Both the position numbers and the translations under genes were made by a program. A stretch of 64,000 bases of DNA from Rhabditoides inermis. Its lineage: Eukaryota; Nematoda; Chromadorea; Rhabditida; Rhabditidae. The stretch covers positions 227,001 to 291,000 of the forward strand of contig CAWZYM010000086.1 in NCBI GenBank assembly GCA_963966185.1, given 5' to 3'. Positions within the stretch are counted from its first letter, which is position 1, and each line of letters opens with the position of its first letter. The notes below the pieces were generated by a model. It searched no databases. It was not told the origin of the DNA and saw nothing but the letters and a program-made list of their open reading frames with translations. Shown here one piece after another: positions 6,364-62,695 of this stretch.

Positions 6364-6410
<47 letters not shown>

Positions 6411-8565: not shown

Positions 8566-8699
8566 TTCCTCTCATTCGGTTCACCACGATGTCTCACCAT
8601 GGTGTGCGAGTCGGCGCCGCACGCATTGCAGCAGCATCGCACGCAGAGTATGCTGATGCCAGCCGCGAACGAGCACAGCACGATGAACACGCCGAACGA

Positions 8700-9455
8700 C
8701 TACCACGCGATCACGCCCCCCTCAAACGGATCATAGGGACTCGCCGAGCAACATATACGTAATATGCACATAATATACATATCGTACCTATTTTACAATA
8801 CATTTACATTTTATTATGATACGTAAACGTGGCGAACACTGAGCGGACCTCTCACCTCCTGCTGCAGAGCGTCATTGACGAGGTGGTTGATGGTGTCGCC
8901 GCTCACATCCACGTTGGAGAACACAACGTCCGAGAGCGCCTAGAAAGTGATGCATCCACAGGCATCCACTGTTTCAATAGAAGTTCATACATATGATATC
9001 AATCATCTGAACAACACAAACATCCTGGTACCGGTCAAGTATTAAAGCTAGTGATGACTGTGACAGAACCTTTGGACAACGAAACGTGTATAAAAGAGGT
9101 CAATGCCTACAATAACCTGTTTCTGGAAGATGCCGTCTCACTTTCATGGTCTTGTCGTCGAGCGGTTTGTAGATGCCCTTGGCGATGCCCTTCGACATGG
9201 AGATCCATCCGCTCAGTGGCGCCGCGTTCTCAGGAACGATCGAGTACGACTTGGGTATGGGACAGTTGGAGGAGCCGGCGGCGACTGAAAGCGAACATAA
9301 TCATAATGATGCCCGAAGATGCATACACTGAATTTGTCTTGCTACCTGATGATACCACGATTCTCTAAGTTCGACAGTTGTCCCATGTTTTCGGCACAGG
9401 CGTAAACAAACACTATACCTGCGACGCATAGCAGAGCTGTAGCGAGCGCGCGCAT
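8700..9455 (-). pseudogene. Gene A2: small signal-peptide protein, anchor lost to a nonsense codon
   Basis: Four minus-strand exons join in frame: 9455-9419 (signal peptide, MRALATALLCVA), 9284-9142, 8939-8856, and from 8720. The ectodomain is short (CPIPKSYSIVPENAA at its start). In copy B the last exon continues into a TM helix and a Cys-rich tail (RCCCNACG). In copy A a TAG at 8702-8700 replaces a Gln codon two residues after the helix begins (VIAW-stop). As written, A2 would make an unanchored product of about 90 residues or is a pseudogene. The layout (ectodomain, GGVIA helix, CCC-N-CG) resembles the first part of prominin/CD133 proteins; that is a weak, remembered similarity. The gene starts about 260 bp after A1 ends. 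Confidence 0.6.
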
Positions 9456-9713
9456 CGCTGTGGACGTGTGCACAACTATTGCTTATCACATTGCACGCTC
9501 TTCCCCTCCCGCCTCACCCCCAAACTCGCACCAAGTATGTGACGCATCCATGATAACACTGATAACTTTATGTCGCGCACACACAAAAATGCCATAAAAT
9601 GTGAATGTGATGATATCATTATTCCGAAAGCATAGTGACATACACATCAATATTCAATTATATAATGTTATGACAGTCGTGCAGAAGAGTTGCATGTGCG
9701 AGAAGGAACTTCG

Positions 9714-22006: not shown

Positions 22007-24919
22007 CGGGCATGATGGGAAAAAGGCCTGTACACTCAGTGAGTGTAGGCCCGAAAGGAGTTCTGAGTCACTTCGAGAAGCGTAAGATCACAGATCTTCT
22101 GCCCTCCCCGCACAGTGACGTCAGCCCTCGTGGGGTTCTGAATGTAAACGTAACTCTGCTCACCCTGAATGGCCGTCGGCTCCAGAGCGAGACAGTTCGC
22201 GACAAGTTTGACGTCGATGCCCTCCGTCAGCCATGTGTCTTCATTGAAGACGATACGATGTCGCAGTGAACCCTGTGTTCAGTGGAGGATAGCAGATACT
22301 CGTTTCATACTCTCAAACACGCCCGAAAAATGGTAACTTGGGCTGAGTGGATTCCGGCGGATTGTGTTTAATCACTGATTGGCAACCAGTGATACGGGAT
22401 TGTTATGTGCTCTCTTGTTAGGAGGCCAATGATGGTTTTCACTAGGGGTGGTATAGTTCTCAACCAATGCAACCAAACGAGTACTATCGCAACATAAGTT
22501 TATACCACAACAACTATGCGAAATACGTCACAACTACATTGCATCTAAAGATATGCAAACATATTAATCTCCTCCACTGTGGCGCCGCCTCCCGCTCGCC
22601 GCTCCCAGCTGATCGCCGTCTCGCTGTGCGCCGACTCCAATCGCGCGCCAGCATCTGCCCCTGACGCCATCGGAGCGCCGTCTGGAAGATTTCCGGATGA
22701 GTCTACTCAAGGTGCGCGATTCAATCCCACCTCATTCTGTTGTTTGTCCCGCCGGCGTGCGGTCGACCCTTCCGTTCTCAGAATCCCGTGATTCTGAAAT
22801 TGTCGTTGTTGCTTTCTGATCGTCTCCGTTGTTGACTGTAATCCCAGTGTTATCCCCCGACTACGGTCAATTGTTGTCTTGTATTCGCTAGTGTCCATCT
22901 AGCCCGTATCCTATATTCCCGTTCTCCATTTATTGCGTTTCTTTGTAAGTGTTCGATCGTTACTGTTGTAAATTATTCTATTGTTGTTACCACTGTTTTG
23001 CTACGGTGGACACGCGACGCGAACATGGCTCTCTATAAGGGACTACTGCATTCCGCCAGTATCCTGAACCCTACACGGGCAAAACCATGGAACGGGACCG
23101 ACCTTACTCGAGCATCGCTATCACCGAACAATGAGACAATACGAATTGGAGGGGGCGGGGCTAGAATTCGGAGCGTGTGGCGTCTCCGCGCAGGTGTGTG
23201 GAGAGTGTGAGGAAGACGAGGGTGGTCGAGTGGGCGAGGGAAGTGCCGGCTTCAGACAGGCGCCGGAGGGGAAGACAAATTCACGGCGCCGCGAATTCAC
23301 GGCAGAGGTCACATTGCTCGAATCGCAACTCACTCTTCGACCGATGGACTGGTCGCATCGGCGGTCGACGCTTTCGAGTGTCTAATCAGAATCAGCGAGT
23401 TAGCCCTTGTCTATGCTGTAGCTGCCGCACGCGGATGGTGGACACGCGACGCGGACATGGCTCTCTCGTTTCTAGTAGTCTCTTGGGTGCGCTCGGCGCT
23501 CGGCGCGCTTTCAGATTGCGAGAGTGTACCCACCCAGTGACCATGAGTGCGAGTGCGAGAGCCGCCATGAGAGTGGCGAGAACGGCGCAAACCGACGAGC
23601 GACCCGACTGCAATACAGCAATTCAGCTATGATGATTGTTTCACTTCCATTCATGATTCAATTTATCGCAAAGATGTGTGATTTATATGATCACATCTGT
23701 CTGTGTGATGTGATTGTGTGAAGATGGTTTTATGTGATACATAAGGTGTGGGTGCGGGTGTAGGTGCGGTCAGTGTCTTTGAAACAACTGTTATCTGTTT
23801 GATAGTCAGTCGCATTTTTTGAAGCATTATGAAAGTTGTGTAATCACCATCACTCAATCTCGCCGGGACCGAACTGATTCATGGTATGTGACTTACTCGA
23901 TCGCTTGTCAGCACCCACCGACCCCGGTGCTATCTTCTCTCGGGGTGCGAGGGTCGAGTCGAGGGTACGATAGTCGAGATGAGGCGTACTCTCAAACTCG
24001 ACCATCGAGTGACCCTCGAGTCGACCCTCGAACTACTGCTATTTTTTAGCGGCAAAATCTGTGACGTCATAATTAACACAAATAACTTTTTTAAGATGAA
24101 AATCACGGAATCTTTATCGCCATCATCTTGCGAGTCGAACGCACCGCGGCACAAGTTCGTAGGACAAAATTTAAATCGATGACCATAAACCCGGCGCACA
24201 TTTGTCGCTGCCAGCGGTTAGACTAAGAGGTGAATCGTCTTCTTTGTGTCGCAACAAAGCGCTAAAAACATCTTCAACGGTGTGGACTTTTAGAGCATGT
24301 CCTTGTTGGGCACAATGCACAACTTTTGGAGTTCTAGTGTGGTCTAGGCATCAAGCCTAAGCACGCTTATATCATATCTGATATCGTTTTTCACTGGTTA
24401 TCTGTAAGAAAAGTGCTACAAAGTTCGAGAGTCGAGTCGACCCAAAGTTCGATGGTCGAGAAAAACCCGGAAACGAGGATCGAGATTTTAGTCAAGACGA
24501 TCCTCGAACCCTCGAGAAAACCCTCGAGCCGTCTACCTCTGTACGCGTACACGAGTACAAGCGATCAAAGATAGAAGCTGACATATTGATTGGACAGAAT
24601 TACATAAATAAAATTTGCAAACCACATACACCAATCGATCTGCCATCGGGCTTGAGAGTCACACCCACCGTACTTGGCGCGCTTGCCGCCGGAGTAGACG
24701 GGAGCGATTCTGCTGCGGCGCCGACCCACCACGTACGTAATTGACCTGCAACAATATTGGGACTTAGGCATCGGTATTACACACACAGAAGAAATACAAT
24801 CGCGCGAAGATGAAAACAAGCGAGTGATTTAGCATTTCAAAAACACCGTAATCAAAGACGAAGAACACCGTAATCAAAGACGGGATTCACATTCAATTCC
24901 CATGGAGGCACGCGAATCC

Positions 24920-25591
24920 ATCCATAGCTACAAACTACAACATGGCATATCAGCGACTGAAAAATAAACACAGACAGCAATTTCATAAACGAGAACTATG
25001 GAAAGAATACGACAGAATATTTCAAGAGCAACTTGCAGCGGGCATAACCGAAATCGCGCCTACCACACGCCAGGAAAAACGTATTTAATGCCTCATCAGC
25101 CAGTTGTAAAACTAGGCTCTACTACCACCAAACTCCGCAAAGTATTCGACGCGTCAAGCAAAGCGCGCGGCGAACAGTCGCTGAACAACGCGCTGTTCCC
25201 CGGACCGACACTGCTACCTAGCCTATGTGGCACGCTACTTCGCACACGCCTACACAAAATTATGCTAACTGGAGACTAGCGTTCCGGCGCGCTGTCGCGC
25301 GCTGCCGCACTAGGTATACGAAAATAGAAAAATAGAAGAATAGTTTGCCTTGCATGTTTGATAGTTGATTTCTCTCTAATGACCCTTTCGATGTTACATA
25401 CACGCAAGGGTTGTATGTAGTTGAAGTGTTCAAGTTCTATTTTTTATATGTAGCTTGATTTTTGTCTTTTCTAACTATCTATCCTACTTATTTTCCCTTA
25501 TTTTATGTTTCACAGATGTACACCGCCCCATCTCTTTCTCCTCCACACTGTTCTGTCTACTTTCCATCCTATCTCCCTCCTTCTCCCCCTG

Positions 25592-25637
<46 letters not shown>

Positions 25638-25991
25638 TCGACACAGTTCTACTCTCCCCTATCTCTCTCTCTTCTCCCTCTCCCACTGTCTCGCTTTCTC
25701 TTTCTCTTTTTCTCTTTCTCTTTCAGTATTATATTCTCTAGAAACAGTGTTATATTCTCTATTGTCTACTGTCAACTTTCTAGAGACAATACTATGCTCT
25801 TGTTTGTCTACTGCATCTTTTTCTTCTACTGTGACATTAATTTTCTAGAGAAACTACTGTTTTCTTCTGTCTACTTTCACCTCTTGTCACCTCTCCCACT
25901 CTCACTCTCACATCTGCAGTAATCATTATCACTGCGACTTTCGAGAGACAGTTATGTCTACTCTCCCTTCTCTCTCCTTTTTTCTTTCTCC

Positions 25992-26032
<41 letters not shown>

Positions 26033-27334
26033 CTATTCTCTCTCTTGTAAACTTTCACGTCCCCGCTGCGGTGACAACAACTTTCTAGACACAGTAGACA
26101 GTACATACTATGGTACCTTCTGTCTACTTTTCTATTCTCACATCTGCAGTGGTCACTGCGACTTTCGAGAGACAGTTATGTTTAAAAAAAAACTTTTTTT
26201 AAACAGAAAGTACTACTCTCTTCTCTACTGTCTTCTCTCCCTACTGTCTACTCTCTCACGTTCTAAAAGTATAGTTTGACTGCCTGTGCTTGCCAAATGA
26301 TATGTAAGGTGAACTCGATTCTCACCTCACCTCACTTCCACTCGACACTGTACTGCATCGAAAAGCGGAATTTCAGGCTGAGTTAGTACAAGAGTACAAG
26401 TAATAACCTAGCCTATGTGGCACGCTACTTCGCACACGCCTACACAAAATTATGCTAACTGGAGACGTCGCTAAAGCTTTTTTTTTTTTTACAAATTCGG
26501 CTTCAGGAAAGCGAACGAGATTGCACACGATTCCTTTGGTTCAAGAACCCAATGCAATAGACCTTCTCAAATGACAACATTATTGAATACCGCATGCGCC
26601 GCCTACCATTTGGAATAAACGTATCACCGTTTATTCTCGCTCAATCAATCATTTACCACCTAGACACCATCGATAGCCCGCTCTCTGCCGAGCTCACTCG
26701 CAACCTATACGTAGATAACGCCATATTTGGAGCTAATACAGTAGATGAGGCAGTGCAGAATTACAAGGAATCAAAACGCATCTTTAACGAGATTAATTGC
26801 AATCTACGCGAATTTGCATGCAACGCGCGAGAAACATTACAGGCAATTCCGGAATACGACCGAGCGAAAAATGAGACACTGCAGAAAATGCTTGGATTGC
26901 AGTGGAATACCGCAATGGATACATATACTATCAACACCGCGCTGTCCGACGTACAAACACATACAAAGCGGGCCATCGTGTCCGCCGTTTCCGCCGTGTT
27001 TGACCCGTGCGGCATTGCTTCGCCACTCATGCTACGCGCAAAACTACTCATCCAACGGCTATGGCAAGAAGAGCACACATGGGACAAACCAATACAAGGC
27101 TTTGCTGAAACATGGCGCGAATTGCAACAACAAACAAGCATGCAACTTGAAATACCGCACACATCGCTAACATTCGATAAAAGTAATCACTACGAGCTCG
27201 CAACATTTGTCGATGCATCCAACAACGCTTACGGCACTGTCACGTATCTGCTAGAACGCACTCCATCAGCCGTACACACTCAACTGCTCTACGCTAAACA
27301 CCGATTAACACCTTTAACCAAACAGCCGCCATGA
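24920..27334 (+). pseudogene. BEL/Pao pol remnant, copy B
   Basis: The same two RT pieces as copy A (24920-25276 and 26467-27334), with the palm box YVDNAIF and the same frameshift. The CT-rich insert at 25277-26405 is flanked by the 61 bp duplication (25216-25276 and 26406-26466). Amino-acid differences from copy A are few (for example LWQ for FRQ after LLIQR). Confidence 0.9.
25277..26405. mobile_element. CT-rich insertion, copy B
   Basis: A 1,129 bp sister of 5646-6781 with the same flanking 61 bp direct duplication. Its (CT)n tracts are shorter than in copy A. Frames through the CT runs are not treated as genes. Confidence 0.7.
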
Positions 27335-28012
27335 GAGTGACGAGAACGGCGCAAACCGACGAGCGACCCGACTGCAACACAGCAATTCAGCTATGATGAT
27401 TGTTTCACTTCCATTAATGATTCAATTTATCGCTAAGATGTGTGATTTATATTATCACATCTGTCTGCGTGATGTAATTGCGCGCAGGCTGGCATGATGT
27501 CATGCTATCATACTCTATCATCACATGAAAGGTCACTCGTTTCGGGACCCAGCGAGCTCCAAGCGTTTCTCTCTCATTTCATTGTTTTGGGCTGATCTTT
27601 CGGGGTTGTTTGGGGCTGCCGAGCGATGTTCGGGCGTGTTCGGGCAAAGTTTGCCCTCAATAAGAGGTTTTGGGCCAAACGATTTCCCATTGAAAACGAG
27701 GCTGTTCGGGGCTTGTTTGGACCTTCTTTGGACCCCCGAACGATAGTTCAGGGTAAAAGTGCATCTAAGAAGACCCTTGTGTGAAGAAGGTTTTATGTAA
27801 TACATAAGGTGTGGGTGCGGGTGTAGGTGCGGTCAGTGTCTTTGAAACAACTGTTATCTATTTGATAGTCGCATTTTTTGAAGCATTATGAAAGTTGTGT
27901 AATCACCATCACTCAATCTCGCCGTGGCCGAACTGATTCATGGTATGTGACTTACTCGATCGCTTGTCAGCATCCACCCCCGTGCTATCTTCTCAAACAC
28001 GCCGTATCAATG

Positions 28013-28100
28013 ATGCGGTACGTAAGATCAATATGAGCGGCTGAATCACATTACTTTGTGAAAATTTTGAGAAGCGGCTTTTCTATCTACTGATAAGGGG
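28013..28100. other. Copy-B-specific ~90 bp segment
   Basis: Present between the composite end (CTATCTTCTC) and GAATAAGTAATC in copy B and absent from copy A (8363/8364). Either an insertion here or a deletion in A. No repeat structure was recognised. Confidence 0.5.
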
Positions 28101-28255
28101 TGAATAAGTAATCAAACGCAAAGCGTAATGGATTAAGGATTAGCCACGAAAACTATAGTGAGTAAACGTATCGGTGGTGTTCAAATTCGACTTCATTGCG
28201 AGAGGATTGAGATTCCTGAGCAAAACAATACGGGTCTCGAAACAATCGTATTTTT

Positions 28256-29200
28256 TTAAAGTTTTTTTTGATTCGTAGTGTTTTGCTGAGGACTGTGATG
28301 GTCTCGCTTCCTCTCATTCGGTTCACCACGATGTCTCACCATGGTGTGCGAGTCGGCGCCGCACGCATTGCAGCAGCATCGCACGCAGAGTATGCTGATG
28401 CCAGCCGCGAACGAGCACAGCACGATGAACACGCCGAACGACTGCCACGCGATCACGCCCCCCTCAAACGGATCATAGGGACTCGCCGAGCAACATATAC
28501 GTAATATGCACATAATATACATATCGTACCTATTTTACAATACATTTACATTTTATTATGATACGTAAACGTGGCGAACACTGAGCGGACCTCTCACCTC
28601 CTGCTGCAGAGCGTCATTGACGAGGTTGTTGATGGTGTCGCCGCTCACATCCACGTTGGAGAACACAACGTCCGAGAGCGCCTAGAAAGTGATGCATCAA
28701 CAGGCATCCAATGTTTTGATAGTAGTTCATACATATGATATCAATCATCTAAACAACACAAACATCTTGGTACCGGTCAAGTATAAAAGCTAGTGATGAC
28801 TGTGACAGAACCTTTGGACACCGAAACGTGTATAGAAGAGGTCAATCCTAGATACAATAACCTGTTTCTGGAAGATGCCGTCTCACCTTCATGGTCTTGT
28901 CGTCGAGCGGTTTGTAGATCCCCTTGGCCATGCCCTTCGACATGGAGATCCATCCGCTCAGTGTCGCCGCGTTCTCAGGAACGATCGAGTACGACTTGGG
29001 TATGGGACAGTTGGAGGAGCCGGCGGCGACTGAAAGCGAACATAAACATAATGATTCCCGAAGATGCATACACTGAATTTGTCTCGCTACCTGATGATAC
29101 CACGATTCTCTAAGTTCGACAGTTGTCCCATGTTTTCGGCACAGGCGTAAACAAACACTATACCTGCGACGCATGGCAGAGCTGTAGCGAGCGCGCGCAT
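28256..29200 (-). CDS. Gene B2: signal-peptide, single-TM protein with Cys-rich tail
   Basis: Minus-strand exons parallel A2: start ATG at 29200-29198 (MRALATALPCVA), an ectodomain exon (SNCPIPKSYSIVPENAA at its start), the ALSDVVFSNVDVSGD exon, then 28462 onward. The last exon reads GGVIAWQSFGVFIVLC as a membrane helix, then SILCVRCCCNACGADSHTM. A strong donor (ATG|GTGAGA) follows at 28340/28339, but I find no further exon before the retroelement composite. Read-through gives a basic tail ending at 28256. The helix-plus-CCC-N-CG pattern resembles the first TM and loop of prominin/CD133 proteins, so B2 could be the surviving 5' part of such a gene truncated by the composite. Membrane location is inferred. 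Confidence 0.55.
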
Positions 29201-29450
29201 CGCTGTGGACGTTTGCACAACTATTGCTTATCACATTGCACGCTCTTCCCAACCCGCCTCACCCCTAAACTCGCACCAAGTATGTGACGCATCCAACACT
29301 GATAACTTTATGTCGCGCACACAAAAATGCCATAAAATGTGAATGTGATGATATCATTATCCCGAAAGCATAGTGACATACATATCAATATTCAATGTGA
29401 ATCAACATGACAGTCGTGCAGGAGAGTTGCATGTGTGAGAAGGAACTTCG

Positions 29451-32400
29451 TCATGGGGTCGCAGATGTCCACACGTAGCATATCGGAGTCGCCGGTTTAC
29501 TGTAATTCATCAACCGATTTTGAGTCATCTCAGCATCGCTTGTCGTCAGCATCGTATCCAAGACGGGCATGTTTGGCACTGAAAACATACAGGTGTAGCG
29601 CGAAGGCACAGTCATTGTGAACGCACGGGCATGTTCTCTGACGCTGACAAATACGGGCACGGTGCTGCATGCGTGAGGACGGGCGAGGCAGTAGCCGAGC
29701 CGCGTGCCGCCTTGCAGATTGAACGCCTGCACACCTGCAAAACGGAGAGCGTGGAAAGAAAATGAAAGACGGATTCCTTAGCTCTTCGTGATGCCACACC
29801 TTTTTTTTCGCGCGATCGAGTTCACATTGATATACACCCTGACGAACTCTAATTAGAATGTGGGTGTTCGAGACGCGATAGATAACTGTGAAAGGAACAT
29901 CAAATGCTCGCCTCTGCTTGAGGCGTCTTTACCCACCCTCTGACACCTCTCTATCGCTCACATTATAGTTTATAGTGGACATCGTTCAGTGTATTGATTT
30001 GATGAGAAGGCCGAGTGACATGTTGGAGAGCGTAGAGGTGCGAGCAGATGTTCAGATCTATTCGATATCTTAAAACGCCAACAACGACTCACGGTTCGGA
30101 TTGTCCGTATTGTAGAACAGCGTCTTCAGCTGTCCGCACTTTGCAGAAATAGGCGTGGTCACACTGGCCCCGGCGCCTTGTTTGATCAGATAGATCCAGG
30201 TTGCGTGGTCTGTAGAGCGCGTGTGTTATAGTTAAATAGATATACTGTGTTGTGTTCTACTTGCAACTAACTGTGTTTAGGTACTTGATCTGTAACCTAA
30301 TCCGATACTGGATAATACAGTTTTCCACTACTGGATATTATGAAAAATGCAATTTGAAAACCAGTGTTAGAAGTTGAACTAGTAAAATGCTGGTGTTTAT
30401 AGTTAAAGTTAGCATGTCGGTCCGTCTAGCGTACCCGACGACAAGTGTCGGCGGGACTATACGACTAGAACAGTCCTACGTGCCAGTGGAAACCGCGCTA
30501 CTACCATAATACCAATGCTGCTACCATAAGAAACCATAAACCCATGTCTACCGTAACCCGATACCAATGCATCCACAGACAATCCCAAGACATATAGAGA
30601 AGAGAGTTTTACTATAGCATAGAGATATGTACACGACAACAATCGTACAACAACACAACGATATCACATAACGAGTCCAAGACTACAAGACGGGTACACC
30701 AAGATTACATCACGGTCGGTTCAAGACTACATCACGACCAAGAGTGAAGACTCAAGCGATGGCGGCAGCCAGAGCTTATATACTGCTATCTGATGTGCAG
30801 GCGATAAGATACTCAGCCGGATGGTAGAGTGCGGCGGGAGTTCGAGTGGGGGTTTCCAGTGCGGGTACGGTGTGTGCGATGGGGCGCGACACTCCTAGTC
30901 CAACAGAATACCCATTCTGTTACTCCTCCCTATCTCCAGTCGACGTGTCCTCACGGCGAAATCCGCGGCGTTGATCTTCTTCGCTTCTCGCAACGACTTC
31001 AGCTCCAGCGGGAAGCGCAACACAACGGCGCGAAAAAGTCCCTCCTTGGCCTGTCTGGTGGTGCCTGCAGCTCGTTCTCAGTCTTCTGCTGCTCGTTCTT
31101 AGTTTTCTTCTGCTCGTCTCTGGTCTTCTGCAGCTCGCCTCTGCCCTTCTGCTTCTCGCGGCAATGGTGGTGTCATGCGGCGGCGGCTCTTCGGCGTGGT
31201 TCGGAGTCTCGGGTAACAAAACGGCCCGTGTGTGGTGGCGACTCCGTGAATCCTGCCGGCGCCTTCAGCGTGATCGTTCGTGACCTAAACCAAGACAATG
31301 ATTATAGGCAGTAACGTAGCCTCCCCAACGGCATTGAGACAACCTTCTTGCCACGCTTACTGTTCATTACTTGTCATTTTTTTTCAACCTTCTTCAGCCG
31401 TGTTGATGACGGCGTCCTCGGAGTCTTCTCGGTTCGACCTGAACGAGAGGATGAAGTTATGGACAAGATGAGAGGTAAAATTGATACAATTCTTACCTGT
31501 AATTCCCACAACACACAACTTCCTGTCTAACTCACGACTTCCGTGGTCCTTCCACTTCGACGGCTGATCTCTGCCCGTCCCGACTGATCTCGAGTCTTTG
31601 TGGCTGATCTCGATCTTCAACGGCTGACATCGATCGGCTGTAGCTGACATCGATCTTCAACGGCTGACATCGATCTTCAACGGCTGAACTCGATCTTCTG
31701 CGACTGATCTCGCTCCTGTCATTCTTCTGGGGTCTCCTGGCGTGGAGCCTTGCTGTCTAGCCTCCCCATCTCCAAGTCATCGGTCCCATCTGGAGCCGAC
31801 AAGCCTTTGGTCCTTCTGACGTCTTCAGGGCGTCTCCCCTCATTCTTGATCTGGATCTTCTGCTTCCCGGCCTGAAAAGTATAATCATATCGAATAACTA
31901 GATAAACTTACTGATGGTTGCCCTTAGTGACACCCGTCAGCTGGTTCTCCTGACTCTCACCCATGTTGTGAGTGGATCCCCGCTCTTCACTCATAGTGAA
32001 TCTCGGCTTCTCAGCCGATGTCACGTTCACAATAGGGATCGTGTCCCATCCGATCCGCATAGCCTTTGCATCGTAGTCGATGCTCCACGGCGGCAGCTCG
32101 CGAAGACACGTGTTTCCCAAGATGATCTGGTAAGAGTGCGATCCCTTCGGCCTTTCCACCAAATCTGAGAAATACAGACGGACGGTCTGCTTCATCTGCC
32201 CGAAACACATCTCGACATCTGCGTATCCCTTTACGCTGACCGGTTCTCCGTTCACACCGGCTGCTTGTTTGAAGTCCGGGTCTTCCTTGAACGAAAACAC
32301 CCCAACGAGTGGTGCAATCGAAGTGTGGCAGATAGACACACACGCGCCCGTGTCGACTAGCGCCAGAAGGCGAATGGTGTTCACCTTGATCGGGATCTGG

Positions 32401-35400
32401 GAGTAGAAGTGGCTCTCCTTGGTTGCAGTCATCTTCTGTTTCATCTGGTTCTCCACGGTTGCTACCGTGTTCCCGCCGCTCCTCGGCTCCATGTTCATGA
32501 GCTGCGAGTTGTGCTTCATGAGTGCCGCGTAGGCCTCTTGCTGCTGGCTCAGCTGGTTCTCCAGCTCTTGAATGCGGCTTCCGTTCCCAGCTGCCATCAC
32601 TTGAGTGGCCGGCTGTTGCGCCTGCGACTGCATCAGTTGTACCGGCTGCATCGGCTGCATCGGCTGCATCGGCTGCATCGGCTGCATCGGCAGCATCTGG
32701 TAGTGCTGCTGCATCATCGACTGCCGTAGTTGAGGACAGTCAGCTTTGAAGTGCGGCCCGCCACAGTCATAACAACGAACGTTAGTTAGCTGGCGTCTCT
32801 CCTTCTTCGAGGGCGCTCCCTCACACCGGTTCATCCACTCCTCGATGCGATCCACGCGGGATTTCAGCTCGTTCCAGTCGTGTAGGGCGACACTGGGTTT
32901 CTCGCCCGCACACGGCTGCATCGCCTGAGTGGTGTAGACTGCTGCTTTCTTGCTGGTGGAGGGTTTCTCCTCGTCCCCCAGACTTCCTCCCTTCGAGTAG
33001 CTGGCAGAAATCCCAGCTGGTTCGTAGGCGTTCTCCACGTTCCGTGCAATTCTCATTGCTTCGGCGTAGTTCTCCGGCTTTGCGACCCTTACTTGGTAGC
33101 CGAGCTTCTTGTTCAGCTTTCTCATGAACTCCTCATGAAGACGAAGCTCTATGTGCTTGTCGGGCAATCCTTCGTAAGCCGTGTGAATCAGCTTCTTCAG
33201 CTCGTGTCCAAACTCCACGACTGACTGATCCTCGCTCTGAGTCAGCTCTTGCAGCGTTCGCTTGGCTCGATCTTTGTACGCATCGTCATTGAAGAAGTTC
33301 TTCAAGTGCTGCTCGATCTTCTCGAAGTCGTCCCTCTCGTCTTGAGTGAGTTCCTCGATCCTCTCGCGAGCCATCCCATCAAGATGCGTGATCAGCATTC
33401 GCGCTTTCTCCTTCGAGCTTCCATCGTCATTCGGCTTGATGTAGTTCCAAACATCCTCAAATCGGCGCAGAAACTGGAGAACTCGAGTGTCTCCAGTACC
33501 GGTAAATACGGGAATCTCGACTGACTTGTCAGCAGCACCGCATCCAATGACGTTGACGCGAGGTAGCTTCATCAGCGTCTTGTCATCATACCGAGTCATC
33601 TCGGCTCCGACCGGAGTGTGTGCTGTCGCACCATGCAGTTGAAGCTGGCCATGTGTCGACATCGCATCGTTGTGCTTTCTCGCCTTGTCCCTCTGCGTCT
33701 CGGGACTCGCTATCTCCTCTGGCGTCCTCAGCTGTTGAAGTACTGGCGTCGCTAGCGGCAGAAACTGCTGCTGCGTCCACTGGCCCGGCGCCCACTGCGT
33801 CCACTGGCCTGGCGCCCTCTGCGTCTCCTCTCGGCCCGCCATCAACGGTGGCGACACTGCCGCCATCTCCGGAGACATCTGCGGCACTTGGCACATTGTA
33901 GTCAGCGGAGATGCCAATGCTGGCGTCATTCGCTGCTGCTCCAGACCGTGCATGGTCTGCGTCTGGGACTGGGTAAGTGCCATCGTATGCGGCACACACT
34001 GCATCTGTGGCAGGGTAGTTCCCTGCTGTGCCCAAGCCCCGTTGGCTATCGCAGGAGTCTGCATCTGCTGGTAGATCATCTGCTGGTTGAGCTGCTGCCT
34101 CAGTAGTGGACAATGGCTGCGAAAGTGCTGCCCCTGACAGTTGAAGCACTTCACCGTGCTTTTCCTCAGCTTCCGGCTGGTCTGCGGCAGCTGCTGCTGC
34201 ATTTGCTGTGCCTGCTGGAGGCGCTGACTGTCAGCTTCAGCCTCTTCCTTCCGCTGCTTGTGCTCTCGATCGAGCCGCTCCATATTTATGAGGAACTTGG
34301 CGCAATCTGCCTGTGGGTGGTTCCCACTTCCACAGTAATTGCACTGCCTTGTCCACAGCTTGCTGATCTCGATCTCGTCTTCCAGCTCCCGAATGCGCTT
34401 GATGAGTGCCTGCATGTTGCACAACATCACATCGCGCTCTTCCTCCCATGAGGTGTGAGCGCCTTCATCTCGCTGCGTCGTTCGCAGCTCGGTCCTCTCG
34501 CCGTTTCTCGCGCTGGTTGTGTTTCCAACCGCGTCTTTCGAATTGAACATAAGATCTTTGGTCTCACCATTCCGACTTGCCATCGAGTCCTCCTTGCCGA
34601 TGTCCCCCCCTGCCCACGATTTGAGATGGACCAGACCAGTTCCCGCCATCTCCAGACCGCCTTGGATGTTTCCAAGTCGTAAAAGTAATAAGAGCAAGAC
34701 CTAATAAGATAATTCAAATTAGAGCACAGCTCGTCGGCCGCCTTACAAGCAGACCCCTAGCGAGATTGGAGAGGGAGAAAACTTGCCTTTCTGCCTGCGA
34801 GTCACCTGCAAAATATAAATTTAGAACAGGGTATTCCCACACATCACATCGCGTCCCGAATATTATCCCGTCGAACAATACGCGCGCGATTCAAAACGTA
34901 TAGACAGTCCATCCTTCCAGAGTTTAGTGGGGTATAACATTATCCAGTTATACACATCACATAACATCGGAGAGAATCGACCATGATCATCACGAAGATA
35001 TAATCAATTTCTAGCAATGAGAGTGGAAAGACAAAAGATAATATGACAAAACCACCGTATAATAAGAAAGAAAATGTCAGACACGGACCCGGAGTAGTCC
35101 TGGCTGATTGAAGTAGCTTACCCCCCACTTCTCACAGCTGCCTGACACCGTGTTGCGATCACTGGCCAGGTGATCTCCCGTCACACCCGTCGTCGGTGGA
35201 TAGCGTCGTCTCAGCTCGCCAGCACCCGTCGTCGGTGTGGTTCCGTCACACCCGTCGTTGGTGGATAGCGTCGTCTCATCTCGCCAGCACCCATCGTCGG
35301 TGTGGTTCCGTCACACCCATCGTCGGTGGATTATAAAAAAAAACGAAACTAATCTAAACAATTCATTAGATCATTGCACCATCACAAAAGGAAAGAAAAT

Positions 35401-40254: not shown

Positions 40255-40854
40255 AGACTAAACCTTGAAATATTTTCTTAAATTCAGTGGCGGTATATTC
40301 TTTTTTTTAATTCAAAGCCACTAGAGAACGAAAATACAGTACGTGCATGATTTAACATTGTCGACGAAAGTTGTTTTACGAATGGATAAGTAGACCCAGA
40401 CGCTAGCTCTCCGGTGTCTGAGAATGACTCTAATCACCTCCATCCTCCACGAAAAATGTGAAAAAAAAATTACGTCCACTTGTTACCTTGAATTAGTTTC
40501 ACAAATTCAGTTGCGGTATATTCATTTTTTGTCAATAATCACGTGTTGTTAACCGGCAGAATGTTATTTTGAAGTTTTCGAATTTAGGAACCACGTTTCA
40601 CAATTGTTACCACTTCAATCGAGGCTCGCATGTTCGATTTTGATTGAATCGTTCGCCTGCTATTTTTTCAGTGCAGACTTTTACGTGTACTTTTGCCACG
40701 TTTCATTCATAACAGCAAAAACGACCGCATAAAAGCAGAGCGCCGGAGTCAGTCATCACATCAACATCCTCTACTACTTCCAATCGCATCATTCCGCCAT
40801 GCTCATTTCCATACATTCTTTTCTCAAGCTATTGTTCATACCAACTCGTTCAGG
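40255..40854. other. Upstream region of the two-module gene
   Basis: AT-rich, no gene found. It should contain the promoter of the plus-strand gene at 40855; no TATA box or trans-splice acceptor was identified with confidence. The open frame continues upstream of the chosen ATG, but the signal peptide begins exactly there. Confidence 0.4.
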
Positions 40855-43800
40855 ATGAAGATCGTCCTCGTTTTCTCCCTCCTGGTGGCGGGCGCGTCTG
40901 CGGCGTGCAATCCTGACTACACCAAGGGAGGCGTGGGATGGTTCTTCTGCAACCAACAGTCGATGAGTGTCCCGTCCACCTACAACCTCCGGTGGCACAA
41001 GCACTTCGAGCAACGCTTCCAACTGCTGGGAGCTGCGTGTGAAGAGCTGGAGACCAAGATCACAGAGATTCGCGCCATGGACTTCAACCTGAATGTGAAT
41101 GTGAAGTGGACCTTCTCCAACACACCCGAAGGAGTCTTCTTCGATTGGTTCTATGGAGCCCAGTTCTCCAGCACTCTTCGCGAGCAAATCATCGCTCGTC
41201 CCGAGCTTCAGTTCTTCTTCAACGTCTCTTCCAGTGAGTATCATATGCGACAGCATGTTGTTCGTAAAACTAATGTACGACTTTGCAGTCAGCAAGATCA
41301 TTCCGAATGAGAACGCCAACCCCGCAGTTCCTTACACCATCGACGTCGCCACATGTGAACCTGCTGCATCCAGTTAGTTTGTATTCAGGTACCTTTCATA
41401 GTTTGTATGTTGCAGTTTTCTTGGACGAAGAACTCGCTGCCATTTTCAACGCTCTTCCTAACAACAACGACACCAAGCAAGCTCAGTCACACCTCTACTT
41501 TCTTTTCAACAACTCTATCTCGTTCACCAGCGAGAACAAGTACAAGGTGGGAACTCCTCTTCATGAATGATTCCCTATTTAGCATTTTTGTTTTTCAGTA
41601 TTACGCAGTGGTGTACGATGTGCTGACCAGCTATGGACTCGCTTCTCCGATGCTGTCGAATGTGACTGATTCTGCAGTGATGGAAGAGAATGGAGTGACA
41701 GCCGGAAGCAAGACTGACGAGTTCCTCCAGCTGACTATTGCCTTCTACTGTGACATCTTCATGACTTACTCCAGCGGAAAAGTGATCACTGCTGCTCAGA
41801 GCAGTGCGTTCTTCACTCAAATCGACATCGAGTGGAACTTCCTGTATGCTGAAGACAAGAAGAAAGTCAAGCAGTCTTGCCCTGGTTTCACGGACAAGTG
41901 TGAGAAGAAGGGAAAGAAGCTGAAGGGAGGCAGTGGAAGCAAGAACAAGAAGGCATCGCACGGGTCCAAGTCCAAGTCTGGTTCGAGCGAGAAGTCCGCT
42001 TCAAAGGAGTGGGACGGAACGTGCAACACCGAAGATCAGAGCAACATTGCATACGTGAGTAGACTAACACTGAAACATCATTAAACATATGAAACCATTT
42101 TTACAGTACATCTACCAAACGTTCTGTGCCGGACCTCAGGTGTTCAAGAGCTACACCCAGTACTTCATCTCCATTCAAACCCAGCTCATTCTTCTTGCTG
42201 GACCTGACAACGGACATCACTTGGAAACTATCTTTGCTACGGTAACACTATTAGACTCACCTGCCAATTCAATCGTTGATTCAGCTCAATGGAATGACTT
42301 TCACCAACGCTGACATCACCACTACATACGTCTACGCATTCCTTCAAGAAGTCGCAAAGCTCGACGTGACCGTAAGGTCTGAAATTGTCGCTGACTGTGA
42401 AATCTTTTTCAACACGCACAAGTGTGAGTTTACTGAGTTTTATTTGCCAGAGAAACAAATACCAATATTATGACAACTTTCAGTCCAAACGATCATTGCT
42501 GTGATAGGACGCATGAACGAGACAGTGGAGTTCACTGATATTCCCGAGGTGTTCCAAGGTACATTGGACTGCGATCTATTGCAACTCAAGCCATCATCAC
42601 ATTTTAGCCCTCATCTCCGTGGATGTGTTCGATGCGTACATGGAGTTGACTTTCGAGCAGAAGTGCCAGCTGTATGTGGTGTTCTCGTGCCACTCGCACA
42701 AGTACTTCGATGCTGCATCCATCTCCCAGGCTATTGCTAGCATCTCTGTCGAATTCTCCGCCGTTTTCGAGCTCAGCCTCTTCACTTCCCTCACCAGTGA
42801 CGTCCAGGACAACACTACTTTCACAGCTACGGTATGTTTATTATGAATGATTTCAAGTGACATTTGAATCCTAACCGTTTGCAGATTGAATCCGCGCAGT
42901 ACTACGCATTCTCGCAACTGGCTCTGTTTGACTTCTTCATGGAGTCTGAGGTGCTGGCTGCTGTTGACTCGTGTCTTCGCGAGCTCGATTTCGAGACCCA
43001 CGAGCGTCTCGCTCACTGTGCTCCCACCATCTTCTATAGTGTTGAGAAATGTGCCAAGGAGAGCCTCGTCACATTCTACAACCCGTTCCCCTACAACACG
43101 ATCGGCTGGAGTCTGATGAACAACATTGCAATGGGAACTCCGGGATACTACAAAAAGTGGAATGCTGTGTTCGAGCCTTGCGCACAACTCCTAGCAGCTC
43201 TCTGTCCCGAACTGAGCGACACAATCACTAACATTCTCAAAAACACCGCGATCACTGATTTCTCCGTCAAGGTTAATTTCTATGAGACTCCGGAGTACGC
43301 CATTTTGTATGAATTCTTCTTCAAACTTGACTGGGAGCTCCGCATCGAACTCTTCTACAAGATGGACTTCATGTTCGCTTACGACGAATGTGAGTGACGA
43401 ACGATTGAAAACACATCAAAGTTGTTTGTGTTTTCAGTCAACGCGCCGATCAAGGAGCAAGCTAAGAACCCCATCGAATTCCATCCCATCGATGTTGATT
43501 CGTGTGAATCGTCTGTTCAGAGTGAGTTATCATTTATCAGCAACAAACTACATGTGTTTGTCTTCTTTCTAGTGCTCATCGACATTCAACTCAACGAGAC
43601 GTGGAACAGTCTGTCCACTGACCAACAGTATCAGCTCATTTTCCTGTCCGGCAAAAGCCACTACTTCAAGTTCGAATTCGAGGTATATTGGTTTTTAATG
43701 ATCTTCTGATAACCTATTTTAGTACTACGCTTACGTGAACAGTATTCTGATCCAGCTTGGACTGATGAACCCTATGCTAGCCAACGTGACCAACACTTCG

Positions 43801-45219
43801 TTCATGGAGGAGATCGGAGCGACCAACGGAACCGCTGTCGGCTCTTTCTTCTATACCCTCATCAAATACAACTGCGACATGTGGATCAAGTTTGCGTGTG
43901 GAGAGAGCATTACTGTGGAGGCCGACTTGGCATTCAACACCCAGATCTACATTGGCTGGAAGTTCCTCACGCCTTCTGAGAAGAAGGTGGCCAAGGAGAA
44001 CTGCCACGGATTCTTCGATCAATACCATGGTGGCCATCTTTTGAATACTGAAAATAGTGGTTGTTCTAGACAAGAAGAAGAAGAAGCTTCACGGAGGTAG
44101 CAAGAGCGGCTCGCACGGAAAGGGATCCAAGTCGGGTTCGAACGAAAAGTCAAAGTCGAAGGAGTGGGATGGATCTTGCAACGAAGACGACTCCAAGTCT
44201 ATCGTCTATGTAAGCATTTTACCAAGCGTCTCACAATAACATTTTTGTTCAGTACGCTAAGCAAGCGTTCTACTGCGGAGAGATGGTCTTCAAGAAGTAC
44301 ACTTCTTACATCCTCTCGTTTGAGCTTATCTTCGTGAACTCTGTTGATGTGCAGTACGCTAGCCAAGTTCAAGCGTTGTTCGATACGGTAAAATCAAGTT
44401 TTATAATCAGATATAACATTTAAATTGCAGCTCAAGTCGAAGAAGTGTGACGACTCCAAGTGGGAGTCTTCCACCGTTCTGGAGTTCTTCACTCTTTTCG
44501 AAGCACTTGACGTTTCTGTTAGGACAGAGCTTATTTCCAAGTGCAAGGGATGTTTCAGTGTGTCGCAATGTATGTCTCACATGAGTTTACAAAACATGAA
44601 TCCATATTATAGTCTCGACTTCTATCCAGCTGCTCGGACGCCAGGAGGCTGGAGAAATTGTTGATATCACAGTTCTTCCGCCCGTTTTCCAGGGTACATC
44701 ACATCAATACAATACGTAAATGAGTGGTCATTTTTTTCAGAAATGATTTCTGTGGAGTGCAACAATGTGTTCCTGGCTATGACTGCTGAACAACAAAGCC
44801 AGATCTATATTGCCTTTGAAATGCGTTCGCAGTTCTCGCTAACCGCCTTCAAAGCGCTTCTGGAACAGATCTCTTCCGAGTTTGCTGCCGCTTACGTTGA
44901 GGTGTTCGAGTCATGCCAGTCGCTCTCCGTTGAAGCTACTTCTTTCGTCACCATGGTAAGCACTGTTTTGATGGAACGAGACACACTTTGAACTACGTTT
45001 CAGGTGGTCGAGGTGCAAGCGTATTCGTATTCGGAGTGCAGCGTGGGCGATTTCTACGAGGAGTCCACTTCTCTGGAGTACATCGCCACTGCCACTTCTA
45101 CTCTCACGTCGTCTGCTCGTGCTGAGCTCAAGTCGTGCGATTCCAACAAGTTCCAGGCGATTCTTGTTCTCATCGGAGAAGAGGACTTCGATGACGAAAA
45201 CACTACTCCTGCTTTCTAA
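40855..45219 (+). CDS. 18-exon gene for a secreted protein of two homologous modules
   Basis: Exons: 40855-41233, 41289-41372, 41416-41546, 41599-42054, 42107-42241, 42285-42423, 42484-42558, 42608-42831, 42885-43389, 43438-43521, 43573-43682, 43723-44029, 44070-44209, 44253-44387, 44431-44569, 44613-44693, 44741-44955, 45004-45219. All 17 introns are 40-60 bp GT-AG and all phases agree, giving 1,184 residues. It opens with a clear signal peptide (MKIVLVFSLLVAGASA). Residues about 20-603 and 604-1184 are homologous: exons 1-8 plus the start of 9 repeat as the rest of 9 to 18 with matching order and phases. Each module has a Lys/Ser/Gly linker (about 301-335 and 878-913) ending KEWDG(T/S)C. 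Helical, Cys-bearing and aromatic-rich otherwise. I do not recognise the family; it is extracellular by inference. Confidence 0.9.
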
Positions 45220-45471
45220 ACTACTCAACTTTGAACCATATCTTGAAAAGATAAATGTGCATTCTACGTCAATTTTGCATTTGACATATGGGAATAGAGA
45301 GCGGGAAGAAAGGTGCAGGTTGTGTTGGCGTTTGGATAAACGTTGGCATGCATGTGTCTGGACATCCCTTTCTCTCCTCTTTCCTTTCACTCTTCCATTT
45401 CACCTGCCGCCACTCGCCTCTCTCCCAGCCACACCGAGTGGTCGCACCTTCCTCCCACCCAGCCAGCCACG
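45220..45471. other. Intergenic gap
   Basis: About 250 bp between two plus-strand genes. It contains the 3' UTR of the first gene. No AATAAA was seen (an AGATAAATG lies near 45247). Confidence 0.4.
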
Positions 45472-46470
45472 ATGGCAAAGGTCGCCATCGCACGCCCCTC
45501 ACCCTGCTTTCTCTCTCTCTCTCTCTCTCTCTCTTCTCCCTCCCACCCACTCGCCTTGGCTCTCTGACTTCCCCTTTTCTCTAGGAGAAGGCCGCCAAAT
45601 CGAGTGGCGATCTCAACGTCTCTCTCACTCCTCTCACCATTTCGATGCCTCTCATCGGAATCGCCAAAATGCACCTCAACAACAGCGAAGACTTCAAGGT
45701 GGCATTCAAGATAAAGAGCTCCGACAACAAGTCTTACAGGTGAGAGGGAGAGGGAGAGAGGGAGAGGGAGAGGGAGAGAGAGAGAGAGGGAGAGGGGAAG
45801 AGGGAGAGAGAGAGGGAGGAGAGAGAGTTACTCGTTCAGACTGTGTCCTCCGTGGGACTATGTCTCGCCAGGAGAGACCAAGGGTATCCTGATTCAGAGG
45901 AAGGTACGCCACCCTCCCCTCTCTCTCTCCTCTCTCCCATTCTCATCTCAACCCTCTCTCTATGTCTCTCTGTCTCTGTCTCTCTCTGTCTCTGTCTCTC
46001 TCTCTCTCTTTCTCTCTCTCTCTTTTTCTCCCTCCCTCCCTCCCCCTCTCTCTTGCAGGAAGGTCCGGCGGGTCGCTGTAAGATGTACGTGATCTGTGCT
46101 CCTATCATAGATGGCTGCAAGTCAGCGAGAGAAGTGATCGACAAGACTCCAAAGGACAAACTACACACATTCACAGTCTGGATCAACGCCAGCAAGGACG
46201 GTACTGTTACCTACCGTACTCCAGTGTATACTGTAATCTACCGTATCCCAGGGCAAGTTAAGGCGTTTGATGAGAAGGATGCTCTGATGGTTATCGAATC
46301 AACGCTCGGACCGACTGACAAGGACGGAAAACCGATGTCTCCGGATGATCTCGCGGTACGGTATACAGTAGTTACGGTAACCTACAGTACCCTGGTTACA
46401 GTACTTCAAGCCGCCTCCTGGAGTCGTGCCAGCTTCTCCCGCACCTTCCGGTTCTCCAGCTCCGAAATAG
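45472..46470 (+). CDS. MSP-domain protein, nematode sperm-protein type
   Basis: Six exons join in frame: 45472-45480, 45585-45739, 45840-45903, 46059-46200, 46252-46355, 46402-46470, giving 180 residues. The fold is a Major Sperm Protein/VAP domain: LNNSEDFKVAFKIKSSDNKSY, then PPWDYVSPGETKGILIQRK, KMYVICAPIID and HTFTVWINAS. It exceeds classical MSP (about 127 residues) by a C-terminal DxKDGKPMSP segment and a Pro/Ala/Ser tail ending SPAPK. The nine-base first exon and its weak donor (AAG|GTCGCC) are the least certain parts. MSP-domain proteins of this size in nematodes are often sperm-enriched; here that is inference. Introns 1-3 carry long (CT)n or (GA)n tracts. Confidence 0.85.
45740..45833 (+). 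repeat. (GA)n-rich tract after a 5' splice site (MSP gene)
   Basis: The second intron of the MSP gene is almost wholly GAGAGGGAGA-type sequence, starting within the GTGAGAGG donor. Comparable tracts are listed in the findings. Confidence 0.8.
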
Positions 46471-52011: not shown

Positions 52012-54638
52012 CTACTTGGAGAGGGCCTTGTCGAGGGGGTAGTGCTGGCCGTACTCCTTGAGGTGCGCGTCCAACTCGGCCCTCTGACGCTCCAGCTTCT
52101 GGTCTATCTGAAACACCTCTCTCTCTCTCCGTCTCTTTCTCTCTCTCCGTCTCTCTCTCCCTCTCTTTCTCTCTCTCTCTCTCCGTCTCCCTCCCCCCTT
52201 CTCCACTCACATCCTTGTACACTCCCTCGAACATGTCGTGATGGTGGGCGAGCTTCGTCTTCTCAGCAGCGTCGAACGCCTTCAGAACCTTCTTGCGCAC
52301 CTGAAACACGAACAGTAACTCTACAGAAAATCTACGACGCAGGCAATAGAGCTGATCCTAGCGTAGGTTCAGGCTTGATAACTTGCCTTCCCTCCCCCTC
52401 CCCTCCCTCTCTCCTTTCTCCTCTCCCCTCCCACCTCCTTCTGCCAGTCCTTCTCCATCTCCTCGTTCCACCACCCCTTTTCCGAGATGAACTTCTTGAA
52501 GCGCATGATCGGGTGGTCCTTGTCTCCCCACTCCTGCACCTCAGCCGCCGAACTGAAACGCCAAAATGCTCACACCAGACCACACGCAAACATGTCAGAA
52601 AAATATGTAAGAACTAGAACCGAACAAGAGCAGGCAACCAAAATCTTGTTTCGACCAAGTAACCAAAACAAACAAGCAAGCATCCTACCGGTAGGCGGTC
52701 GAGTCGTCCGAGGTGGAGTGGTGTCCGAGGCGGTAGGTCATCGCCTCAATAAGCACCGGCTTGTTCTGGAGTGCCAGCTTTCTCGCCTCCGCCACAGCGT
52801 TGTACACGGCAAACAGGTCGTTGCCGTCCACCCTGCAATCCATCCATCCATCAACCAATCAATCAATCAATCAATCGATGTAGTTTACCGTAACCTTACC
52901 GAAATTTACATTGTCGTAATGTGCTACTTGATTCAAGATAAATATCCTGTGTATCAGATCAATCAAACATCATTTCAAAATCTCCCCGAACACAGAACGA
53001 TCTCCTTTTCGAAAACGTAAACCCAAGGGGCCAAGGTCCTCCTGACTCCTGACCTGATGGTGTGCAATCCGTATCCGGGTCCCTTTCCGGCGATGCCGTC
53101 TCCCGCATACTGCTCGCTGGTCGGCGTCGAGATGGCGTAGCCATTGTTGCGGCAGAAGAAGATGATCGGACAGTCCTGCAACACCCAACAGTCAGAATAG
53201 AAAGACTTTAAATATGGCGAGCGAATCAAACTACCAAGACTCGAACCAAAACATCCCGACTGATCCAAAATGACGTGAAAAATGTCAAACGTGTTCGAAT
53301 ACGTCGAAGCAAACTATCCTATCCAGTCTCGTCGACTGACCAGAGTGAGTGGTCGTCACCGGCAAAGGACCAAGGACGTCAAATGGCCAAGCCGGGGAGT
53401 GGAAAAGTGATTGAGTGAGTGAGTGACTGACCAGAGTGGCAGCAAAGTTGAACGCGGCGTGCGCGTCTCCCTCCGACGCGGCGCCGTCTCCAAAGTAGAC
53501 ACACACCACGCGGTCGTTGTTCGGCTGGCGCTTGAACGCGTACGCAGAACCCACAGCCTGAAAGCGGAGACCGTCTCCCTCTCCCTCCCTCCCTCCCTCT
53601 CCCTCTCTCCCTCTCTCCACCCTCCCTCCCTCTCTCACCTGGGGCAGCTGGGTGGTGAGGGGGCTGGAGATCGTCACATAGTTGTGCTCCTTCGAGCCGT
53701 AGTGAACCGGCATCTGCTTGCCCTTTCCTGGAAACACACACACACAAAATGCGTGGTTATTTACAAAACAAACGTTCCAAATGTATATGCATTGTGTGTT
53801 TTTATAAACTCACCAATATCCATGCTGTTTCCGTAGCACTGATGCATAAACTGCTCCAGGGGGAATCCGCGCCACATCAGAACTCCAACCTGCAAGCTGA
53901 TCATAGAACACACTTCAAAACACAGAGAACAACCAAAACACACACCTCGCGGTACTGTCCGAACACGAGGTCGTGATCTTTGAGGGCGGCGGCCGAACCT
54001 ACGTGGTTACCCTAAAACAACTGGAATCAATTTCCCGTCTTTTGGCTTCTCGTCTCTCACTCTCCGCATTGGATTAGAAACCATTAGGGAACCTCTCTCC
54101 CCTTCCTCTCTCACCTCCTCTCCAGTGTTGGTCATGTAGAACGAGATGCGTCCCTGCCTCTGCGAGTCGTACAGAATCCTGTCCATAATGTTCAGCTGCG
54201 TCATCGTACGGTAGATCTTCAGCGACTTCTCCTGCACAAAACACAAGCATGAATAAAGAACACAATACACAAAACACAAGCGGCAAAACACACGACACAC
54301 CTTGTCAAACTTGGGGTCATGGCTGGGGTCGATCACCCGTCCCTCGGCGTCCGTCACCCTGTAGATGGGCATGGCGGGCAGAGTGGCCGAGTCGACCACC
54401 TCCAGCTTCTCGGTGAACGCCGCCTGAGTGTGTTTTGATCATTACATCAAACTACAATGTGTTTTGCTCATCCATCATCTTCTCACCAAACTATGTTTTG
54501 CTCGCTCACCTTCCTGTATCCAAGGTACTTTTGCGAGTACTCATTGAGACGGAACTCGTCGCTGGCCTTGCTTGCGAGTGCGCGTCTCGCACCCGCCACG
54601 CGCACTCCCCGGGAAGCTCCACGCAACACACACTGCAT
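52012..54638 (-). CDS. BCKDHA: Branched-chain 2-oxoacid dehydrogenase E1 alpha subunit
   Basis: Twelve minus-strand exons give 431 residues: 54638-54510, 54423-54301, 54231-54115, 54011-53946, 53889-53814, 53727-53639, 53557-53432, 53175-53054, 52832-52689, 52552-52435, 52300-52211, 52107-52012. The Arg/Ala-rich start ([20 protein letters not shown]) is a mitochondrial targeting peptide. The thiamine-diphosphate motif runs from [11 protein letters not shown] (223-) to CRNN (250-253). The regulatory loop [12 protein letters not shown] keeps the kinase-target Ser (about 322). The end is [13 protein letters not shown]. With E1 beta it decarboxylates 2-oxoacids from Leu, Ile and Val. Length matches the animal enzyme. 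An ATTATTGCAG acceptor lies 19 nt before the ATG. Several introns start with GA tracts. Identification is firm. Confidence 0.97.
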
Positions 54639-61100: not shown

Positions 61101-62695
61101 TAATCTCACCTGCTCTCCGCTATTCCACTCGTAGTGTCCACTGGTCTCGTTGAGCGACAGACCGACGTGAAATTTGACCCGTCCGAGTGACGTGTCCCAC
61201 ATCGATAGCATGTAGTCTAGAAGAAGAAAAGTGAGTCACCGGGTCAGTCCAGCCTAGTCTTCTACGGGTTCAGATTTAGACAAGTAGCGTGCTCCACAAA
61301 TGGATATCATGTAGTTTCATGTAATCCGCGAGTGCACCCCAGCCGTCGCAGAGTGCGGATGGTGGGCACGAGACGCAGCCTGCGTGATCTCTTGTTTTCT
61401 AGAACTCATCTCCGAGCGTCTGATCATAGAAAGAGAGGAACATGCTTTTCCAGGATTAACAGGTGAGAGCTAATCAGAAAGTACTCACTCATGACAAAGT
61501 CGTACTTTTCCTTGCTCGTTTCGGAGGCGAGCCGGCTGCCGGCGTGCATGCGGTTGCAAGCGTACCTGAATGGATCTCCCTCCCTCTCTCTCTCACCCTC
61601 CCTCTCTCCCTCCCTCCCTCTCTCTCCCTCTCCCTCTCCCCCTCTCTCCCTCCCTCCCTCTCTCTTCCTACATAGCCTGTGTCCATCCAGCATCGATGTC
61701 GGCCGCTCTCAGACACTCCCCGAACCGCCGACCACCCACGGACAACTGCTCCCAGTTCGAAGGACAGAAACAGTTTGCTGAACATAACATATACATAATT
61801 TACAGTGATTCTGCAACGCTAAAGATAAAATTGTTCTCCTCCTTTATTCTAAGGGAACGATGCAGGTACAAGTATTCTCATACCGTAATTCTAAAGGAAC
61901 GATGCAGGTCAAATCATTCTTCTACCGTAATTCTAAAGGGACGATGCAGGTCAAAGTATTCTCCTACCGTAATTCTAAGGGGACGATGCAGGTCAAATTA
62001 TTCTCCTACCGTAATTCTAAGGGGACGATGCAGGTCAAAGTACTCTCCTACCGTAATTCTAAGGGGACGATGCAGGTCAAAGTATTCTCCTACCGTTATT
62101 TTAAGGAAACGATGCAGGTAAATTTTTTTCCTACCGTAATTCCAAGAGGACGATGCAGGTCAAATTATTCTCCTACCGTAATTCTAAGGGGACTGTGCAG
62201 GTCAAGTTATTCTCCTACCGTAATTCTAATGGGACTATGCAGGTCAAAGTATTCTCCTACCGTAATTCTAAGGGGACGATGCAGGTCAAATTATTCTTCT
62301 TCCGTAATTCTAAGGGGACGATGCAGGTCAAAGTACTCTCTTACCGTAATTCTAAGGGGACGATGCAGGTCAAAGTATTCTCCTACCGTTATTTTAAGGA
62401 AACGATGCAGGTCAATTTTTTTCCTACCGTAATTCCAAGAGGACGATGCAGGTCAAATTATTCTCCTACCGTAATTCTAAGGGGACTGTGCAGGTCAAGT
62501 TATTCTCCTACCGTAATTCTAATGGGACTATGCAGGTCAAAGTATTCTCTTACCGTAATTCTAAGACTCACCTTGGCAGAACGCGTCGATGAGCTCATCG
62601 ACGACATCAGGATGGGTGTCCGTGGAGGTGAAGTTCATTCTGGGAGACGCGAGATCTCCAAGTTTCAAAACGAGATCCGTCTCGTCGGGCTGAGT

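Follow-up and report, generated by a model that had tools for sequence, protein, structure and literature searches.

The 64,000-nucleotide (nt) window analysed here, positions 227,001 to 291,000 of Rhabditoides inermis contig CAWZYM010000086.1 (assembly GCA_963966185.1), contains an 18-exon gene for a large, repetitive and probably secreted protein (Table 1). The gene belongs to a set of near-identical copies scattered and arrayed across the genome assembly, and may encode a product that the worm requires in quantity.

The gene and its repeated halves

Splicing of the 18 exons in silico gave, as the first-pass annotation of this DNA had proposed, a coding sequence without a frame break; it has 3,555 nt and is divided by 17 introns of 40-60 bp each, all of them GT-AG. 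The encoded protein has 30 cysteines and 11 N-X-S/T sequons, and its translation suggests that it is secreted. Residues 1-602 and 603-1184 are 32% identical over 571 columns (blastp, SEG on, E 2e-76), and all eight introns of the first half coincide in alignment column and phase with eight of the nine in the second. The ninth, at 44030-44069, has no counterpart in the first half, retains GT..AG in 25 of 25 aligned copies of the gene, and is required for the frame because its length, 40 bp, is not a multiple of 3. An internal duplication that kept its exon plan, with this intron as the sole difference between the two plans, had been claimed beforehand and is borne out, as is the presence in each half of a Lys/Ser/Gly linker with the ending KEWDG(T/S)C.

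Table 1. Features of the 18-exon gene and its surroundings (window positions)
Feature	Position	Strand	Description	Basis
Block common to window and C398 copies	40306..45290	+	about 0.5 kb upstream, gene, about 70 bp past stop	
Core promoter block	40728..40760	+	33 nt, TATA-like/initiator-like (presumed labels), CATAAAAGC...GTCAGTCATCACA	genome-wide motif search
Splice acceptor	40849..40854	+	TTCAG followed by G, abutting start codon; probable SL1 trans-splice acceptor, or acceptor of an intron in the 5' untranslated region	
Whole 18-exon gene	40855..45219	+	1,184 residues plus stop	spliced frame
Putative signal peptide	40855..40902	+	about residues 1-16, MKIVLVFSLLVAGASA	by eye from translation
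Unit U1	40927..41898	+	residues 25-298 (exon 1 part, exons 2-3, exon 4 part); acidic, net charge -12	
Linker 1	41899..42024	+	residues 299-340; Lys/Ser/Gly-rich, basic, net charge +8; C-terminal KEWDGTC	
Unit U2	42025..43070	+	residues 341-603 (exon 4 end, exons 5-8, exon 9 start); acidic, net charge -23	
Unit U3	43071..44028	+	residues 604-876 (exon 9 part, exons 10-11, exon 12); acidic, net charge -15	
Intron 12	44030..44069	+	40 bp, phase 1, half 2 only	splice model, copy alignment
Linker 2	44070..44179	+	to residue 913; Lys/Ser/Gly-rich, basic, net charge +7; C-terminal KEWDGSC	
Unit U4	44180..45216	+	residues 914-1184 (exon 13 end, exons 14-18); acidic, net charge -23	

Upstream of the start codon lies a 33-nt block, the parts of which we take to be TATA and initiator elements. 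The acceptor sequence TTCAGGATG at 40849..40854 is unchanged in all 25 aligned copies, and there are 368 exact matches to the 22-nt SL1 sequence in the genome assembly searched (172.64 Mb, 599 contigs, with the window on contig C86). Together, the promoter block, the conserved acceptor and the SL1 sites fit with a gene whose transcript would be trans-spliced to SL1 at the acceptor that abuts the ATG. Some SL1 sequences stand in a tandem cluster at C109:1419-11534, where they recur every 1,442 bp (8 sites among the matches listed).

Copies in the genome and selection

Because the exon searches score only the best candidates, the copy counts that follow are lower bounds; separation of haplotypes in the assembly could inflate them. 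Exon 12 was found in at least 25 places, plus weaker matches to the corresponding exon of the other half. Exon 9 was found in at least 24 full places, in shortened form on C398, and as a 133-residue fragment on C232, amounting to at least 26 hits above the diverged-half matches, with weaker other-half exon matches besides; one more weak match lies on C273 (E 0.019). The 33-nt promoter block occurs at 27 places, 26 of them exact and one with a single mismatch: one on the window's own contig, 8 on C104, 16 on C105 and 2 on C398. All 27 sit at copies of the 18-exon gene, and the block was found nowhere else in the genome at up to 3 mismatches.

Alignment delimited 22 full-length copies in arrays (8 on C104, 9 and 5 on C105). 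Besides the window copy, it showed two on C105 that are truncated and two on C398, of which one is full-span and the other carries an internal deletion. Copies within arrays are spaced at about 5.4-5.5 kb (5.43-5.51). The distance is longer at one point on C104, where an inserted segment (C104:440830-449575) separates two copies; its two 784-bp ends are identical, and it looks like a recent long terminal repeat (LTR) element. The identity of the array copies is about 95% with the window copy and 98.8-99.8% with a single array copy used as reference. The window and C398 copies share a common block (Table 1), and beyond it the stretches compared had no likeness to the C398 or array flanks except for repeats of up to 75 bp. 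The window gene is best read as a dispersed member of a high-copy gene set that is restricted to its lineage. The family has also left a rearranged fragment on C232 (about 137846-138565), where its promoter region is fused to a 390-bp piece of exon 9 that is 96% identical.

Near-identical arrays break assemblies, and here one array runs to the end of C104, another begins at the start of C105, and a run of 2,500 N bases on C105 adjoins the second array there. Similar pairs of chemoreceptor matches on different contigs (C158/C161 and C318/C320) may be haplotypes assembled apart. The copy number could therefore be largely an effect of assembly, with diploid alleles held as separate contigs or repeats over-extended, and the true haploid number perhaps half that counted. 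We regard this as somewhat unlikely, since seven array-flank stretches, when compared, had no similarity longer than 150 bp at E<=1e-20, and since the copies differ both by point changes and by the retroelement-like insert.

Among the 22 array copies, 17 are intact, with no premature stop or frame shift and the same exon plan (in three, the donor of intron 14 is GC), and these encode 15 distinct proteins. The ratio of nonsynonymous to synonymous change (dN/dS) was 0.15-0.18 between the window copy and 21 array copies, and 0.19 among the array copies (ratio of means over 210 pairs). The frame-shifted copy was excluded from this set and four with stops were included; the comparisons share history and hence are not independent. 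The values of 0.15-0.18 place the protein under purifying selection. Linker 1 has no amino-acid difference between the window copy and the array majority, nor within the 21 array copies.

The fraction of preferred codons (Fop), on a list for C. elegans, was 0.66 for this gene, compared with 0.44-0.53 for four retroelement frames in the window, 0.54 for an E1-dehydrogenase exon also in the window, 0.80-0.82 for two actin pieces, and 0.42 for a 37-codon exon of a Major sperm protein (MSP) gene. A position above the retroelement frames and below actin suggests good but not top expression.

A probable four-fold repeat, its relatives and its surroundings

Each half probably consists of two diverged units, such that the protein as a whole is four-fold, in the order U1-linker-U2-U3-linker-U4. 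A two-row profile of U1/U3 aligned over 82 columns to one of U2/U4, with an hhalign score of 37.35, a probability of 56% and an E-value of 1.1e-4; in the same test the best of 100 column shuffles scored 22.18 and a reversed profile 12.92. The intron phase pattern 1, 1, 0 is found four times along the gene, and two phase-1 introns are in exact register across U1-U4 in each of three MAFFT modes, an agreement reached under random placement in 1.2e-4 to 2.0e-4 of simulated trials.

Several features pull the other way: the profile match is short and its probability modest, U1 and U2 are only 17% identical, the third unit intron (phase 0) occupies different columns in U1/U3 and U2/U4 (193 and 220), and two additional introns are present in U2/U4. 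That the protein is only two-fold, with U1 and U2 as unrelated helical domains whose weak likeness arose by convergence in composition, nevertheless seems quite improbable, because the shuffles preserve composition and none of the 100 came near the observed score, and because introns, which are invisible to aligners, match at two exact positions and phases.

A well-supported order of events has a unit becoming a pair with a linker, the pair being duplicated, and the resulting gene being amplified. The half duplication then appears to be the middle one of three levels, preceded by the pairing of units and followed by the spread of the whole gene into arrays. The probable four-fold repeat and the amplification of the whole gene go beyond what the first-pass annotation described, and they bring together in one gene three nested levels of duplication, with introns as independent witnesses of their order, and a recent amplification under purifying selection.

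Searches for relatives agreed with the first-pass annotation, which knew of no family with this layout, three fragments aside. Scanned against Pfam, the complete protein and the separate halves gave only a 24-residue COX7B match under the cut-off (E 0.11-0.19); matches were listed up to E 10, but most of those above about 0.1 are lost in scans of this kind. Neither the protein nor an alignment of its halves matched any PDB sequence at E<=10, and a large protein set gave nothing for the whole protein at E<=0.001 or for the half alignment at E<=1. A four-unit profile retrieved from that set only three fragments of 151-203 residues, which cover 37% of the first unit at identities of 98, 98 and 88%. 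The last of these (P0003) is 88% identical to exon 4 with a changed linker, and shows that there is a diverged copy or a sister lineage. A one-module relative turned up neither in the large protein set with this profile nor in the genome among the best candidates of the exon searches. A text search of the literature for the string KEWDG had no match, and listings of papers on arrays in Pristionchus and on secreted nematode proteins encoded in tandem included nothing on this gene.

AlphaFold2 was given exon-sized pieces, and its models of exon 4 (100 residues, 5 rows) and exon 9 (168 residues, 9 rows) contained helices and no strand. With mean pLDDT values of 55.8 and 49.7, they hint weakly at a helix-rich protein, at a confidence too low for comparing the folds of the units.

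Directly downstream of the gene, at about 45585-46360 on the + strand, is a gene with an MSP domain (E 1e-13). This neighbour and the SL1 sites support a nematode source. Pristionchus pacificus, considered at first, was dropped because the Pfam cellulase model PF00150 had no match in the genome, whereas Pristionchus carries genes of that type. Farther upstream in the window, a block of about 8.1 kb is present twice (276-8356 and 19907-27994, 99.5% identical), and the likeness extends at 93% through 8357-10509 and 28100-30269. Its frames include reverse transcriptase, RNase H and a Pao-type peptidase, and the pair represents either a recent duplication or two insertions of retroelement DNA. The window also holds an uninterrupted 930-residue frame with a Retrotrans_gag match (31911-34700, - strand, E 6e-07), an exon matching a dehydrogenase E1 component (53288-53809, - strand, E 1.8e-11), and a tandem repeat at 61828-62566 with a unit of about 42 bp, as judged from the offsets of self-matches.

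Possible role and comparison with known systems

The presence of more than twenty near-identical, mostly intact copies in tandem arrays suggests that the worm depends on large amounts of a secreted product not characterised so far. Our preferred explanation, to which as a whole we give a probability of about 0.4, is a secreted, helix-rich, modular protein of a matrix or coating material, the dose of which is raised by gene copies. Each copy would have its own promoter, so that copy number would raise dose; the transcript would be SL1 trans-spliced and the protein then secreted, with its signal peptide followed by four units and two linkers. Attraction between the acidic units of one molecule and the basic linkers of another might then drive assembly into an extracellular material such as a coat, a glue, a plug, or an egg or gland secretion. 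A bolder version, which we think unlikely, is a worm silk, glue or coat: a nematode-restricted secreted material built from a protein family of unrecognised fold, in which four helical acidic units would be carried on basic linkers and supply would come from a homogenised array of at least two dozen genes, each driven by a promoter of its own.

The evolutionary and dose parts of this explanation are much better supported than the material role, against which several observations count. Charge-driven assembly is proposed from composition alone, and the role itself from sequence. The frame is broken in 5 of the 22 array copies and in both C398 copies, so that either not every copy works or the assembly contains errors. 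A striking conservation of the linkers, considered at one stage, was dropped, as they are not significantly more conserved than the units (differences at 1 of 79 versus 41 of 1,088 residues, Fisher p 0.36). The Fop of the gene is below that of actin, and was measured with a C. elegans codon list against a small comparison set, in which the short MSP exon is also lower. The AlphaFold2 models are of low quality. A needed, well-expressed protein would fit the purifying selection, the copy number and the codon use, none of which demonstrates adhesion, and the structural or adhesive role put forward in the first-pass annotation can be regarded only as a suggestion. If the arrays are real, the gene is a clear case of dose raised for a large secreted nematode orphan protein, and it hints at a secretion that is perhaps abundant yet undescribed.

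The main functional rival to a material protein is a secreted carrier or storage protein, made in bulk, in which helical units bind lipids or small molecules. It would fit secretion, repeated units and the all-helical prediction, and the nematode polyprotein allergens (NPA, ABA-1 type) offer a precedent: they are secreted, have tandem helical units in each chain and are made in quantity (PMC3079579). The protein described here would resemble them in these respects but be left uncut; it differs in having no furin-like site, in its larger units, its intron-rich gene and its lack of a Pfam match. The likeness is thus a functional analogy at most, and we judge such a carrier to be an unlikely, if coherent, alternative. 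Cleavage of a polyprotein was considered and is disfavoured, with no R-X-K/R-R sites and with Lys-Lys as the only dibasic sites. Still less probable is a secreted factor against other organisms (food bacteria, competitors or a host), or an inhibitor, amplified for dose; it would suit a secreted, lineage-restricted and amplified product, but dN/dS values of 0.15-0.18 and homogenised arrays are unlike an arms race, and the Pfam scans placed it in no known family of effectors, enzymes or inhibitors.

SXP/RAL-2, DUF19/T20D4.11-like and FAR proteins form secreted, nematode-restricted, helical families, none of which matched the protein in the Pfam scans up to E 10, with the loss of most matches above about 0.1 noted earlier. 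The dauerless gene (dau-1) of Pristionchus shares with the present gene its status as a nematode orphan of variable copy number, and is described as acting by that copy number, with one or two gene copies, 314 residues, 10 exons and no signal peptide (PMC4473527). With 1,184 residues, 18 exons, a signal-like N-terminus and 27 copies, ours is a different gene, and dauerless was rejected as its counterpart. The aciniform spider silk protein AcSp1 consists of helical units of about 200-400 residues with flexible joins, like beads on a string (PMC4481645). The animals are unrelated, no relation between the sequences was found (the PDB search, which would cover solved spidroin domains, was empty at E<=10), and AcSp1 has many alike units compared with the four diverged units here. 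The likeness, concatenated helical units with flexible joins, may nonetheless serve as an analogy for how the nematode protein could work.
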